Below are positions 2,240 to 32,810 of a stretch of DNA of 42,945 nucleotides, in pieces (the stretch's first letter is position 1; each line of letters opens with the position of its first letter). The DNA lies in contig JAPUDO010000114.1 of the NCBI GenBank assembly GCA_027493055.1, forward strand, positions 1 through 42,945, in the 5' to 3' direction. The position numbers were made by a program, and so were the translations under genes. Below the pieces are notes generated by a model, which was given only the letters and a program-made list of their open reading frames with translations, had not been told where the DNA came from and ran no database searches. The stretch is from Niabella sp. GTDB taxonomy: Bacteria; Bacteroidota; Bacteroidia; Chitinophagales; Chitinophagaceae.

Positions 2240-2932
2240 ATGAACGATAACATGATCCTTGTTTCCGAAGCCAACGATGTAGAGCGTGCCGTATTTTACA
2301 AAAAAACCTACCTGCACGTGGCTATTGCCATTTTATCTTTTATGGTAGTTGAAGGCTTTTTATTAAGAGCAGTTCCGCGGGAGCTGGTATTACAGATGGT
2401 TTCCGGTAAATATATCTGGCTTTTCATTATAGGTATGTTTTGGCTGGCAAGTATCCTGGCCGACAGGCTTGCTTTTTCTCCAAGTAAAAATATGCAATAC
2501 GCGGGGCTGGGCCTATATGTATTGATTGAGGCTATTATATTTCTTCCTATTCTTTATATAGCCCTTGTGATGAGCAATGGCGCTGCTGTGGTACAACAGG
2601 CGGCATTAATTACGCTGTTCATGTTTGGCGGATTGACCGCAGTAGTGTTCATGACCAATAAGGACTTTTCTTTTTTAAGATCAGCCATTGTGATTGGTGG
2701 CTTTGTTGCGCTGGGGTTAATTGTTGCCGGGGCCATTTTTGGTTTTAACCTGGGCCTGTGGTTTTCGGTAGCAATGGTAGCCCTGGCTGCTGGCAGCATT
2801 TTATACCAAACCAGCCAGATAAAGTATAAATACGCTACAGGTCAGTATGTAGGTGCTGCCCTGCAGTTGTTTGCTTCAGTGATGCTGTTGTTCTGGTATA
2901 TTTTAAGAATACTGATGAGTAGAAGGAACTAA
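2240..2932 (+). CDS. Bax inhibitor-1/YccA family membrane protein
   Basis: 230 residues with about seven hydrophobic segments spread evenly along the chain, a short charged N-terminus and a basic C-terminal end (RILMSRRN). Length, segment spacing and the ending match the Bax inhibitor-1/YccA/YbhL family of integral membrane proteins, some of which conduct calcium. The exact role in this organism is unknown. The ATG at 2240 lies 80 bp after the preceding receptor stop, so the gene probably has its own promoter. A good Rho-independent terminator follows at 2951-2987, so it is likely transcribed alone. Family assignment rests on overall topology and recognised sequence style, without a search. 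Confidence 0.75.
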   Translation: MNDNMILVSEANDVERAVFYKKTYLHVAIAILSFMVVEGFLLRAVPRELVLQMVSGKYIWLFIIGMFWLASILADRLAFSPSKNMQYAGLGLYVLIEAIIFLPILYIALVMSNGAAVVQQAALITLFMFGGLTAVVFMTNKDFSFLRSAIVIGGFVALGLIVAGAIFGFNLGLWFSVAMVALAAGSILYQTSQIKYKYATGQYVGAALQLFASVMLLFWYILRILMSRRN

Positions 2933-2950
2933 AATATTTTTTTGCAGTTC

Positions 2951-2987
2951 AAAAGTCCCCTGGCGTAAGAACGTGCAGGGGATTTTT
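2951..2987 (+). terminator. Rho-independent terminator after the Bax-inhibitor gene
   Basis: AAAAGTCCCCTG pairs with CAGGGGATTTTT, giving a stem of up to 12 bp with one G-U pair, a 13-nt loop and a T-run on the plus strand. It ends the transcript from 2240-2932. Confidence 0.85.
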
Positions 2988-3038
2988 GGTTTAATTTAAT
3001 TAATTTTTGAAAGGAAAAATGATTAATTTCACAAATGT

Positions 3039-3248
3039 ATGCAAAGCGTAGTCATAGATATAATTAATAAAAAGGCCATAAAACTCTTACAGGACTTAGA
3101 GCTTTTACAGCTCATTCGTATGCGAAAGGAAAAGAAGCAGTCTGTGCAAAATGTTGATTGGAGCGCAAGGTATAAGGGAGCTATTTCCCGGCAATCAATT
3201 TCAGATATTGACCAACAGCTAAACGAATTGCGTAACGGATGGGAATAA
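3039..3248 (+). CDS. Small antitoxin-like protein upstream of a PIN toxin
   Basis: 69 residues, beginning MQSVVIDIINKKAIKLLQDL and ending in a basic and polar tail. Its last 10 bp overlap the start of the PIN-domain gene, which is the classic order and coupling of a type II toxin-antitoxin pair. Many small Bacteroidota VapB-like proteins share the N-terminal pattern of a hydrophobic strand followed by an amphipathic helix. No firm DNA-binding fold can be read by eye, so the antitoxin role is inferred from position and size. An in-frame ATG at 3039 is the only reasonable start. Confidence 0.65.
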   Translation: MQSVVIDIINKKAIKLLQDLELLQLIRMRKEKKQSVQNVDWSARYKGAISRQSISDIDQQLNELRNGWE

Positions 3249-17226: not shown

Positions 17227-17541
17227 TTATTGCCCTATGTTGAGTTGTATATCCGAAAGTTCAACCTGCAGCTTCACTTTTGCTTTTAATGCAGTAAAGA
17301 CTCTTAATAATGTGTCTATAGTTACGTTGCCTGCATTATTTTCGAGTCGTGAAATTTGTGCTTTTTGAACACCGATGAGCTCACCTAAAGCTTCTTGCGT
17401 CAAATTGCGTTCCTGCCTTGTTTGCTTAATAGCTTTGCCAATTAAGTCCATTTGAAGTTCATATTCAAAGCGGTCCCGGTTGGGAGTTCCAATTTTTCCG
17501 ATGAGTTCATCCTGTATTTCGTCTAATGTGTATGTTTTCAT
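17227..17541 (-). CDS. HigA-like antitoxin, XRE family helix-turn-helix
   Basis: 104 residues. The helix-turn-helix is clear at about residues 36-80: KQTRQERNLTQEALGELIG followed by VQKAQISRLENNAGNVTIDTLLRVFTAL, the standard Cro/C1 layout. It starts 4 bp inside the end of the HigB-like gene (ATGA overlap), giving toxin-first order as in higBA loci. It should bind and neutralise the toxin and repress their common promoter. Some proteins of this type were described as phage-derived. Confidence 0.85.
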   Translation of the reverse strand: MKTYTLDEIQDELIGKIGTPNRDRFEYELQMDLIGKAIKQTRQERNLTQEALGELIGVQKAQISRLENNAGNVTIDTLLRVFTALKAKVKLQVELSDIQLNIGQ

Positions 17542-17891
17542 TTATAATCCTTTTTTTGTTTTTCTTCAAAATATTTTGTCCGGATTTGAACCGCTTTTTG
17601 AATCTCCTGTTTTGGAACGTTACTTCGCTTTTTAATAAATCCGTGAGTGGAAATTACCAAAGTTTCTGTTCTGGAAGTTTTATCCCAAAAAGCAAGAAGC
17701 AGGTATTGCAAACCCTGATACAAGGTTCTGAATTCCCAGATATTATCGGTCAGTTTTTTGAAAAGTTCGGGGTCATTTTCTACTTGTGTCTTACGAATAT
17801 TGTAAATTATTTTTTCGTAATGCCTGGACTCTAAATTTTTCAAAAACAAAAGCACTTCTTCTAAAAATACAATTTCAAAACGTTTATTCAT
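17538..17891 (-). CDS. HigB/RelE-like toxin
   Basis: 117 residues from the ATG at 17891 (MNKRFEIVFLEEVLLFL). The frame is open to 17978, but a promoter-like TATCTTTG lies at 17917-17910 inside that extension, so the short form is chosen. Features of the RelE/HigB/Gp49 group: YEKIIYNIRK early on, then IWEFRTLYQGLQYLLLAFWD, and VISTHGFIKKRSNVPKQEIQKA, with the GF-KK pattern near the end. Such toxins cut mRNA on the ribosome. The product of 17227-17541 is its partner. The gene order is toxin then antitoxin. Confidence 0.85.
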   Translation of the reverse strand: MNKRFEIVFLEEVLLFLKNLESRHYEKIIYNIRKTQVENDPELFKKLTDNIWEFRTLYQGLQYLLLAFWDKTSRTETLVISTHGFIKKRSNVPKQEIQKAVQIRTKYFEEKQKKDYK

Positions 17892-17909
17892 TTCAGCTGT
17901 TGAACGGCA

Positions 17910-17917
17910 CAAAGATA
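17910..17917 (-). promoter_or_regulatory. -7 box TATCTTTG of the higBA-like pair
   Basis: An exact TAnnTTTG match on the minus strand, 19 bp before the chosen toxin start, with a TTTC-like -33 about 18 bp upstream (17936-17939). It decides between the two possible starts of the toxin gene. Confidence 0.55.
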
Positions 17918-17967
17918 TTGAAGTTTCATTAAAACGAAACTTTACTATCTTTTTCATGAGTGGGTAT

Positions 17968-17998
17968 AAAAAAACCACCTGCGTTTAGGCAGATGGTT
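17968..17998 (-). terminator. Rho-independent terminator of the TPR gene (minus strand)
   Basis: Read on the minus strand, AACCATCTGC (17998-17989) pairs with GCAGGTGGTT (17982-17973) in a 10-bp stem with one U-G pair and a 6-nt loop, followed by a run of T. Confidence 0.85.
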
Positions 17999-19046: not shown

Positions 19047-19117
19047 TCAATTAATTTTTTGACTACCTAAAAACACAAAAAGCAAGCCGAAAAACGCCAG
19101 CTGCATTATTTGAGATG

Positions 19118-19125
19118 CAAAAGTA
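19118..19125 (-). promoter_or_regulatory. -7 box TACTTTTG upstream of the TPR gene
   Basis: An exact TAnnTTTG match on the minus strand, 71 bp before the ATG at 19046. The -33 region is only T-rich, so the assignment is moderate. Confidence 0.4.
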
Positions 19126-19251
19126 GGCGAAAGGGTGGCAGCTGAGGGAAAATTTATTTCACATCCTGAATTTTTAAGCATTTGTTAAAATGTTATAAGC
19201 ATCTGGATGTTAAAACCTTGCAAAGCGCTGTATTTTTTATAGGCAGAGGGC

Positions 19252-19259
19252 TACATTTG
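19252..19259 (+). promoter_or_regulatory. -7 box TACATTTG upstream of nadE
   Basis: An exact TAnnTTTG match 22 bp before the ATG at 19282. No clear TTTG -33 box at the right distance. Confidence 0.5.
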
Positions 19260-19281
19260 TAGGGTATTCAAAAATATATCA

Positions 19282-20010
19282 ATGAAATTTGCATTAGCCC
19301 AACAAAATTATCATATAGGCAACTTTGAAGCGAATGTTCAGAAAATTATCGCAGGGATTGAACAGGCAAAGGAGCAGGGAGCCGACCTGGTGATTTTTTC
19401 TGAATTATGTATTTGTGGATACCCGCCCCGCGACTTCCTGGAGTTCAATGATTTTATTAACCAGTGCTATGCCGCTATAGATATCATCCGGGAACATGCA
19501 GATACTATAGGCGTACTGGTGGGAGCTCCTGCTCGGAACACCAACCCGCTGGGTAAAGACCTCTTTAACGCTGTTTTTTTATTGCATGAGAAGGAAATTA
19601 AAGGAGAAGTGCATAAAACCCTTTTGCCTACTTATGATGTGTTTGATGAAGGCCGCTATTTTGAACCGGCGTACAGCTGGAATGTATTAGAGTTCAGGGG
19701 TAAAAAACTGGCTGTAACTATTTGTGAAGATATTTGGAATATGGGCAGCAACCCTCTGTACCGTATTACACCTATGGAAGAGCTGATCCAATTTGGTCCC
19801 GATGTGATTATTAACCTTTCAGCATCTCCTTATAACTATGCGCAGGACATAGTGCGCAACAGCATTGTAAAAGCGCATACTTTAAAATATAACCTGCCCA
19901 TGCTATACTGCAATGCCGTGGGATCGCAGACAGAGATCGTGTTTGATGGCGGCAGCCTTGTGTACGACGATGCCGGTAATAAGATGGGCGAACTGAAATA
20001 TTTCGAGTAA
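19282..20010 (+). CDS. nadE: NAD+ synthetase, glutaminase (nitrilase-fold) half; reading frame ends at a premature TAA
   Basis: 242 residues, matching the amidohydrolase half of glutamine-dependent NAD+ synthetase. The Glu-Lys-Cys triad is intact: Glu41 in IFSELCICGYPPRD, Lys112 in HKTLLPTYDVFDEGR and Cys148 in VTICEDIWN. This half frees ammonia from glutamine for amidation of nicotinate adenine dinucleotide. Normal enzymes are single chains of about 540-570 residues. Here a TAA at 20008-20010 ends the frame right after ELKYFE, in the linker, and a second in-frame TAA is at 20056-20058. The synthetase half continues in the same frame, and reading through both stops would give 566 residues. 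No frameshift is involved. Either the gene is recently broken, or it works as two chains, or the sequence has errors. Confidence 0.85.
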   Translation: MKFALAQQNYHIGNFEANVQKIIAGIEQAKEQGADLVIFSELCICGYPPRDFLEFNDFINQCYAAIDIIREHADTIGVLVGAPARNTNPLGKDLFNAVFLLHEKEIKGEVHKTLLPTYDVFDEGRYFEPAYSWNVLEFRGKKLAVTICEDIWNMGSNPLYRITPMEELIQFGPDVIINLSASPYNYAQDIVRNSIVKAHTLKYNLPMLYCNAVGSQTEIVFDGGSLVYDDAGNKMGELKYFE

Positions 20011-20020
20011 GATTTTAAAT

Positions 20021-20052
20021 TGTTTTATTTTAATGACCTGGTCAATAAAACA
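20021..20052. repeat. Dyad between the two in-frame stops of nadE
   Basis: TGTTTTATT (20021-20029) matches AATAAAACA (20044-20052), with GACC-T-GGTC (20035-20043) at the tip and a 5-nt bulge (20030-20034). This makes 13 base pairs in total. It lies exactly between the stops at 20008 and 20056. Confidence 0.7.
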
Positions 20053-20076
20053 CCGTAAATTACAGCAGAAACGCCC

Positions 20077-20982
20077 GTGTACTTTGCTTCATCAGAAGTG
20101 GGATTTGGTAAAGATGTGCTGGAATATCTTACGGATAAAACAAGTATTGCAGAAATACATTCGGCATTATTGCTGGGTATAAAAGATTACTTTGCCAAGA
20201 TGGGTTTTACAAAAGCCATTATCGGCTCCAGCGGGGGTATTGACAGTGCTGTTACCATTGCGCTTGCGGTAGAAGCTTTAGGAAAAGAAAATGTACGGGC
20301 TGTGCTGATGCCATCGCAATATTCCACTTCGCATTCTGTAAGCGATGCAGAGCAGCTAAGCAAGAACCTGGAAAATCCGTACAACATCATCGCTATCAAA
20401 AATATTTATGATGCTTTTCTTACAGAGCTAAGCCCTCTATTTAAAGATCTGCCTTTCAGCGTAGCGGAAGAGAATATACAAAGTCGCTCACGGGGCAATT
20501 TATTAATGGCCATAGCAAATAAGTTTGGCTATATACTTTTGAATACGTCCAATAAAAGTGAGCTTGCAACGGGATATGGTACCTTGTACGGAGATATGGC
20601 CGGAGGATTGGGTGTTTTAGGCGATGTGTATAAAACGCAGGTATATGCCCTGGCCCGCTATATCAATCGGGAAAAGGAAATTATACCGGAGCATATTTTA
20701 ACAAAAGCGCCATCAGCAGAATTACGTCCCGATCAGAAAGACAGCGACAGCCTGCCTGAATATGATGAGCTGGATACCATTCTTTTTAAGTATATAGAAG
20801 AGCGGCAGGGACCTAAAGAGCTGGTGGCGCAAGGGTTTGATGAGAAGCTGGTAGCACGTATTTTGCGTATGGTAAACCTGAACGAATATAAACGTAACCA
20901 GTTTTGCCCTATTATAAGAGTGAGCTATAAAGCATTTGGTGTGGGAAGGAGAATTCCTATTGTGGCAAAATATTTGAGCTGA
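20077..20982 (+). CDS. nadE: NAD+ synthetase, ATP-pyrophosphatase half
   Basis: 301 residues from a GTG at 20077, in the same frame as the glutaminase half. The start is uncertain: no ATG occurs before the essential helix IHSALLLGIKDYFAKMGF, and no Shine-Dalgarno is obvious. The P-loop SSGGIDSAVTIALAVEALG, the TSNKSELATGYGTLYGDMAGG stretch and PSAELRPDQKDSDSLPEYDELD are all intact. This half adenylates deamido-NAD and amidates it with ammonia. On its own it should be able to use free ammonia, as the small NadE enzymes do. It is followed by moxR 38 bp downstream. Confidence 0.85.
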   Translation: MYFASSEVGFGKDVLEYLTDKTSIAEIHSALLLGIKDYFAKMGFTKAIIGSSGGIDSAVTIALAVEALGKENVRAVLMPSQYSTSHSVSDAEQLSKNLENPYNIIAIKNIYDAFLTELSPLFKDLPFSVAEENIQSRSRGNLLMAIANKFGYILLNTSNKSELATGYGTLYGDMAGGLGVLGDVYKTQVYALARYINREKEIIPEHILTKAPSAELRPDQKDSDSLPEYDELDTILFKYIEERQGPKELVAQGFDEKLVARILRMVNLNEYKRNQFCPIIRVSYKAFGVGRRIPIVAKYLS

Positions 20983-22029: not shown

Positions 22030-22487
22030 GACAGTTGACAGTTGATGAATGACAGGTATAATTGTTTTTCATAATCTTAAAACACCATAATTATGACAAA
22101 TTACAAAAAACTTGAAGCCTGGAAAAAGGCTATGGAAATGGTAAAAGCAGTTTATATGCTTACAAAAACATTTCCCAAAGAAGAAATATATGCGCTGACC
22201 AGCCAGATTAAACGTGCCGCTATATCCGTACCTGCCAACATAGCCGAGGGAAGTGGAAGAAATTATAAAAAAGATACGATACAGTTTTTGCATATCTCAA
22301 GAGGATCTTTATATGAACTGGAAACATTATTAAATATTGCTGTAATGGTAGAAATTATTAGTGAACCGGAGTTTGAGCCGTTCACAGGTATGATTGATGA
22401 ATCTGTTAAGATATTAAATGGTCTTATCAACTATTATGAAAGATCAACCCTTAAATAGCTGTCATCCGTCATCTATCATCTGTCAAC
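22030..22487. mobile_element. Candidate insertion cassette: four-helix-bundle gene flanked by imperfect inverted repeats
   Basis: Left end 22030-22055 carries GTTGACAG...ATGACAG units. The right end, 22459-22487, reads the same way on the other strand (GTTGACAG at the outside, ATGACAG at the inside). The right repeat begins directly after the stop of the enclosed gene, and only that gene is inside. It sits in the middle of an otherwise standard operon. There is no transposase, and no clear target duplication was found. Related GTCATC/GTCAAC tracts occur at 41620-41633 and 42239-42270. Confidence 0.5.
22093..22458 (+). CDS. Four-helix-bundle protein (23S rRNA intervening-sequence protein family)
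   Basis: 121 residues. The hallmarks of the S23/IVP four-helix family are clear: YKKLEAWKKAMEMVKAVY near the start, LTSQIKRAAISVPANIAEGSGR in the middle and FLHISRGSLYELETLLNIA in the third helix. Relatives occur inside 23S rRNA intervening sequences, as stand-alone genes, and as the Avd protein of diversity-generating retroelements. No reverse transcriptase or template repeat is nearby, so a DGR is not supported. Function of stand-alone copies is unknown. They may bind nucleic acid through a basic surface. Its place inside flanking repeats suggests a moving cassette. Confidence 0.9.
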   Translation: MTNYKKLEAWKKAMEMVKAVYMLTKTFPKEEIYALTSQIKRAAISVPANIAEGSGRNYKKDTIQFLHISRGSLYELETLLNIAVMVEIISEPEFEPFTGMIDESVKILNGLINYYERSTLK

Positions 22488-32141: not shown

Positions 32142-32810
32142 TTATTTAGCAAGTGCAATGGCATTGGCGATGGATTTTTTATTGCTGATAATATCTAATA
32201 TATTTTCATTCAGCATTACAGCTTTTTTGTCGGACAACAATTTGCTTCCCTTGTTGCTGGCTGATAGGATAGGCTTTTCAAATCTCACAATACCGGTATA
32301 AGTAGCCCCGTTGAACACTTCTTTGTCGGCGTTGCTGAGTTTGTTATATTCAGCTTTTAAAGAAAAATTGGTCAGTTGTGAGAAAATTTTAGTACCGGGC
32401 TGGTAAGCGTAGTTGTCTTTAACATCTGCCGGTTCTATTTTCTGTATTGCGGCAATTTTCCCGGCGCCCTGGTTCAGGCTTTCAATTTTGTTGAAAGAGC
32501 ATTTTATGGTAGCGATATAGTTGTCCATATCTAAGCTACTTGCAACATTGCTGAGCCTGTGCATGATTTCAGCGATGATTCTATTTTTTTTACTTTCTGT
32601 ATTATTTCTGCTTTTGTTGGTACCGGTTTTCCATTAATGGTTTTCATTTTAAGAATGGATGCAATTTTTGTTTTGCTTTTGCTCATGCTCACGGTAAACT
32701 GGAACATCCCTGCACCATCATCTTTTAAGTCAACTTTCTCTACTATTTCAGAACACCCTGTCAGCAGCACCGCAATAACCAGTAAAGCGGCCATATATAG
32801 ACCTCATCAT
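32142..32810 (-). pseudogene. Frame-broken lipoprotein gene
   Basis: The parts line up as one lipoprotein of about 220 residues. An upstream start at 32810 gives MMRSIY in one frame. The next frame gives AALLVIAVLLTGC with a lipid-attachment cysteine, then SEIVEKVDLKDDGAGMFQFTVSMSKSKTKI up to KKIESSLKS and a stop at 32531-32533. A third frame overlaps at 32564 with HRLSNVASSLDMDNYIATIKC and continues to 32142. Joining needs two single-base shifts, one near 32793-32798 and one in 32555-32591. An A8 run at 32591-32584 is in phase as A_AAA_AAA and could in principle allow a programmed -1 shift. The family looks like secreted Bacteroidota lipoproteins of unknown role. Confidence 0.6.

Follow-up and report, generated by a model that had tools for sequence, protein, structure and literature searches.

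Putative division of a fused, glutamine-dependent NAD synthetase into two chains in a Niabella-like genome

In the genome of a Niabella-like bacterium (Chitinophagaceae, going by its closest relatives), the gene nadE of the glutamine-dependent NAD synthetase is interrupted by two in-frame TAA codons in the linker that joins its glutaminase (G) and synthetase (S) domains. On the basis of the pattern of sequence change, we put at about 60 per cent the probability that a fused gene has really been divided, and not very recently, into separate G and S chains, as seen in one genome. The linker alone is freely evolving on the branch leading to this genome; the G half, the S core and the C-terminal loop stay constrained. 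It is this restriction of free evolution to the linker that makes two chains the best supported reading, and the pattern of change suggests two working chains rather than a broken gene. By analogy with the two-subunit enzyme of Thermus, the chains probably act together, in which case they would form a complex and use glutamine. NAD synthetase catalyses the final step in the making of NAD, a step that is normally essential.

The split gene and its surroundings

The DNA analysed here (the window) is the whole of contig C114, 42,945 bases in length. The source genome comprises 5.75 Mb in 131 contigs and is listed as 99.99 per cent complete and 0.42 per cent contaminated. The features of its nadE gene are reported in table 1. 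Counting both stops, the gene has 566 codons and ends with a TGA at 20980–20982. For nadE, the three closest relatives in the sample are Niabella ginsengisoli, N. hibiscisoli and G016; their fused proteins are 84–87 per cent identical to the G half and, in each case, 91 per cent identical to the S half. The gene is of the same length in all three, so nothing has been inserted, and an inserted element, an intron or a bypass is thereby ruled out. The G and S frames lie on the same strand, separated by 66 bases, and there is no additional stop or frameshift in the gene beyond the two TAA codons.

Table 1. Features of the split nadE gene. Positions are those of the window; residues and codons are numbered along the fused frame.
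Feature	Positions	Strand	Basis or remark
Glutaminase (G) chain, nitrilase-fold domain, 242 aa	19282..20010	+	ATG start; PF00795, NF010588
In-frame stop 1 (TAA), residue 243	20008..20010	+	GAA (Glu) in 15/15 uncut genus relatives
15 inter-stop codons: modelled last glutaminase strand (244–249) and start of linker	20011..20055	+	alignment, G016 model
Dyad, interrupted stem	20021..20052		fold z = 0.08
In-frame stop 2 (TAA), residue 259, in variable linker	20056..20058	+	7 residue types among 15 relatives
Codons 260–290, released linker, freely evolving on this branch only	20059..20151	+	branch tests
Synthetase (S) chain, NAD synthase domain, 301 aa if begun at GTG 20077	20077..20982	+	PF02540, TIGR00552
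Residues 535–566, extended C-terminal loop (assigned via alignment)	20884..20979	+	PMC3376133

Both halves have the fused model NF010588 as their best match in the profile search, and the protein falls inside the tree of 15 fused relatives, as expected for a descendant of the fused family. The G chain matches PF00795 (E 1.2e-19, profile positions 3–234 of 256) and positions 5–236 of 546 in NF010588; the S chain matches PF02540 (E 7.6e-74) and exceeds the cut-off of TIGR00552. The glutaminase triad, E41 (19402–19404), K112 (19615–19617) and C148 (19723–19725), is present in all 16 aligned sequences. The P-loop SSGGIDS begins at 20227, and the aligned set contains both SSGGIDS and ASGGIDS. The preliminary description, made from this DNA alone, had claimed two intact halves in one frame, parted by two TAA codons, with the triad Glu41/Lys112/Cys148 and the synthetase P-loop preserved; the positions of the open frames and the alignment with the 15 relatives bear this out. 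It had also pointed to a hairpin between the stops, and this finds no support. The predicted fold of the dyad has 8 + 4 pairs and a 5-nt bulge, and 97 of 200 shuffled sequences fold at least as well. The interrupted stem is thus no stronger than chance, which rules out the hairpin as a signal.

Three other places in the window deserve mention. A gene for a protein of the 23S rRNA-intervening-sequence type (PF05635) lies at 22093–22458 on the plus strand, between genes for a MoxR ATPase and a DUF58 protein; a matching open frame occurs in G007, and none of at least 100 aa from G016 or G009 matches. An HTH gene comes after a Gp49 (DUF891) gene at 17227–17978 on the minus strand, in the layout of a toxin–antitoxin pair, and no open frame of at least 100 aa from the three syntenic regions matches it. 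At 32142–32794 on the minus strand, two frames, with a switch near 32555, match a G007 protein of 192 aa that has no counterpart in Pfam; this small gene appears to be either frameshifted or affected by a base error.

Comparison with the genus

There is a single uncut nadE frame in 15 of the 16 other genomes of the genus. The exception is N. defluvii (G005; locus L007, G005:C1:2912746-2916648), in which the N half of nadE is frameshifted in a manner that looks like an indel error; this single-contig genome is listed as 72 per cent complete. It was omitted from the aligned set for that frameshift, leaving the split gene and 15 relatives.

The two stops occupy sites of different character. GAA and AAA had been guessed to be the normal codons, and the guess holds for stop 1 only: at the site of stop 2, AAA is found in three of the 15 relatives and there is no standard codon. 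Among the conserved genes of the window, compared with the syntenic regions of G007, G016 and G009, nadE is alone in having interior stops (opposite-strand shadow frames and stretches outside the open frame of this genome were excluded, and the sorting was done by eye). The earlier argument that a second stop lowers the odds of a sequencing error is upheld, and the behaviour of the linker adds strength to it.

Rate of change in the two domains and the linker

Branch lengths were fitted on a fixed protein tree of the 16 genus members, separately for residues 1–242, 244–290 and 291–566. The terminal branch of the split gene measures 0.063, 1.04 and 0.030 in these parts, respectively; those of its three sisters measure 0.066–0.084, 0.06–0.21 and 0.044–0.055. 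In a second approach, the tree of both domains was scaled to the linker and single branches were freed in turn, on a grid. Freeing the branch of the split gene in 244–290 gives a 7-fold rise (2dlnL 26.5), and lengths of about 0.5–1.8 lie within 2dlnL 3.84 on this grid. For the other 15 branches, 2dlnL is at most 6.1, a value that comes from a slower branch. The nominal p = 3e-7 for 244–290 is optimistic, because the span was picked after a first look and the shape parameter was fixed.

Codons 260–265 (2dlnL 18.0) and 266–290 (2dlnL 10.5) both respond to the test; the inter-stop codons 244–258 give a multiplier of 3 and 2dlnL 3.19, which is not significant by itself. Set against the S core on the same branch, the G half has a multiplier of 2 (2dlnL 3.45, p ~0.06). 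At first and second positions of codons 260–290, the split gene differs from its sisters by 0.23–0.35 per site, compared with 0.06–0.16 between the sisters. Where the three sisters agree, it has changed at 14 of 34 sites in 244–290; the corresponding figures are 11 of 198 for the G half and 2 of 243 for the S core. Raw counts of private residues agree with the branch test, less strongly: there are six in 260–290, with up to five in long-branch relatives, and three in 244–258, a number equalled by two other genomes. Synonymous sites are saturated in comparison with the relatives, so dN/dS could not be used.

The two chains and their expression

The G half is well conserved at the columns that are invariant in the other 15 sequences: it has changed at one of them, and the relatives, treated in the same way, at 0–6. 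A structural model of the uncut G016 protein (whole-model mean pLDDT 79.7) has a strand at 244–249, with a mean pLDDT of 96 for 241–250. Stop 1 precedes this modelled strand and would remove it from the G chain, which may be impaired as a result. The model leaves three cases: the G chain may tolerate the loss of the strand; it may be newly weakened, with S moving to ammonia; or stop 1 may be young or wrong, and stop 2 may be what split the gene.

The first common start codon in the S frame is GTG 20077, with alternatives at GTG 20098 and GTG 20116. Codon 266, which corresponds to the first of these, is GTG in this genome alone among the 16. The release of codons 266–290 is compatible with a start further on as well as with a tail free of constraint. 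In a model of the S chain (mean pLDDT 68.0, weak at 158–184 and 269–301), the first long helix begins, with modest confidence, at chain residue 21 (residue 286). None of the 32 C-terminal residues 535–566 differs from the three closest relatives; since the same stretch is equally unchanged in the uncut sisters, this shows only an absence of decay.

A scan of 19047–20120 for the −7 promoter motif TAnnTTTG gave one site, at 19252, ahead of the G frame; this simple scan gave no occurrence of the consensus ahead of S that would indicate a separate promoter. The two chains are likely to share one mRNA, given that their frames lie 66 bases apart on one strand with a −7-like motif before G and none before S.

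These observations can be joined into the following scheme. In the lineage leading to this genome, a fused nadE gene would have been split in two. Its first frame would then yield a free G chain of about 242 residues, and the second a free S chain from a new start after stop 2, most simply GTG 20077, translated by re-initiation or by initiation of its own on the shared mRNA. The chains would assemble through the contact surfaces of the former fused enzyme, and ammonia would still be passed from G to S, so that glutamine could be used; S might also use free ammonia. For this fuller picture of a secondary fission caught in the act, with the linker non-coding or free, the S start new on this branch and the two-subunit enzyme kept, we regard the chances as even.

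Alternative explanations

Three readings had been offered at the outset: an enzyme of two chains, another NadE elsewhere in the genome, and an S half that works by itself on ammonia. The second finds no support. A PF02540 search of the genome did not reveal a second nadE; it gives two places, the split gene and a protein that is a GMP synthase (772.5 bits). Nor is there an alternative glutaminase partner among the three other CN_hydrolase proteins of the genome, which look like Lnt and, both below the curated cut-offs, an N-carbamoylputrescine amidase-like and an amidohydrolase-like protein. The two-chain reading is best supported, and a shift to ammonia use stays as its main rival. According to this rival, S alone makes NAD from ammonia and G has lately become defunct: the gene was split by stop 2 or by some change before it, and stop 1 trimmed the glutaminase fold afterwards. 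The S subunit of Thermus works with ammonia by itself and single-domain NadE enzymes commonly use ammonia (PMC3376133); in the present gene, stop 1 takes away the modelled strand and the G half evolves somewhat fast when set against S. However, had the G half been released when the linker was, a rate similar to that of the linker would be expected, and its branch is 0.063 as against 1.04. An old, dead G half does not fit, because it would show decay, and none is seen: the triad is intact, and the invariant columns are as well kept as in the relatives. The C-terminal loop of S is also undecayed. We consider the ammonia reading doubtful, although it is the most serious of the alternatives.

An error or read-through would leave the linker similar to that of the relatives, which argues for a real split in which the linker has drifted and both chains have been kept. 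A sequencing or assembly error behind one or both stops might be suspected from the division of the genome into 131 contigs, the apparent frameshift near 32555 and the frameshifted nadE of N. defluvii, but it would have to account for two separate substitutions in one linker, with none inside the other conserved genes of the window, and for a surrounding linker that evolves freely on this branch only. If one stop were wrong, the remaining stop would still split the gene. We judge such an error improbable. Full or partial read-through, with some fused protein made, is very improbable: frame and length are conserved across the linker and the inter-stop codons are not significantly accelerated alone, but two TAA codons stand within 17 codons, the constraint on 260–290 that read-through would preserve has been lost, and the RNA structure is ordinary. 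Least credible is that nadE as a whole is decaying as a pseudogene, with NAD obtained through another enzyme or by uptake. Two nonsense codons in a gene that normally encodes a single chain might suggest this, but both catalytic parts remain constrained, apart from a mild rise, short of significance, in the G half, and the genome contains neither another detectable NadE nor, within this gene, further stops or frameshifts.

Occurrence in related genomes

The distribution of split genes was surveyed in samples of the order, the class and the phylum, which overlap. In the order, 134 of 139 genomes, including the present one, exceed the cut-off of the fused model; 12 others were flagged for stops, and all 12 proved uncut on reading. 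The corresponding numbers for the class are 83 of 144, with four others flagged and all four uncut, and for the phylum 66 of 148, with one other flagged (G657, sequence left unread). Leaving aside the unread G657 and the unread, lower-scoring G582 and G647, the present gene is the sole stop-split case in the samples. The family search matched 376 of 394 genomes, the best part of which was listed, and no clear second stop-split was found among 32 chosen low-scoring or missing genomes that were re-searched; as judged from the search rows, these have pieces at contig ends, low-quality frameshifts (G260) or no match. Among the lower-scoring genomes, nadE changes frame in G495, where it also has an ambiguous base, and does so several times in G564; in G578 it is cut by contig ends.

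One genome of the same order, G448 (contig G448:C2), has a G frame at 1575–2387 and an S frame at 2371–3234 of locus L113, which part in the same linker. It differs from the present case in that the two frames are different and overlap by 17 bases, with a TTG start and a single frameshift, and it is the only genome of its genus in the sample. It may be a second, weaker candidate for fission, or the result of a single base error.

Relation to known NAD synthetases

The fused enzymes of type F (De Ingeniis et al. 2012; NF010588; PDB 4f4h, 5kha) are related to the split gene by direct descent, as both halves match best there, and an uncut relative aligns with 4f4h end to end. Type F enzymes are a single chain; here the G and S domains do not share one open frame, being two frames parted by two linker stops.

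Another close system is the type C enzyme of Thermus thermophilus (TTC1538/TTC1539), a natural two-subunit NAD synthetase whose free G and S are able to form a complex that works with glutamine and which prefers ammonia about 50-fold over glutamine (PMC3376133). De Ingeniis et al. 2012 (PMC3376133) describe an extended C-terminal loop on S as a signature of NAD synthetases with two components. The present gene resembles type C in its adjacent, separate G and S genes and in the loop on S, its position being assigned from the alignment, and may do so in forming a complex. In contrast to the Thermus system, its split would be secondary, its G chain stops short and G precedes S. Most type C and type R enzymes fall in branches IV and V and are read as pre-fusion forms (PMC3376133); by profile scores, the present S chain does not appear to belong there (415 bits to NF010588 against 222 to the single-domain NF010587). 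In common with the single-domain type N it has a free S chain, potentially able to use ammonia, but unlike type N it adjoins a constrained candidate G chain and has the C-terminal loop.

In the portions of the NAD synthetase literature available to us, no report was found of a fused NadE split in Bacteroidota. A two-chain NAD synthetase is known; the arrival at such a form by fission of a fused one would be the new part.

Domain fusion is usually described as one-way, and the direction of the present split is therefore unexpected; the uncut sisters allow it to be compared. Where reads are lacking, a linker that has lost constraint between two domains that have kept theirs offers a way of telling a real split of a gene from a sequencing error. 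If true, a fission in a genus that also contains uncut sisters would be a natural test of the role of tethering in ammonia channelling.
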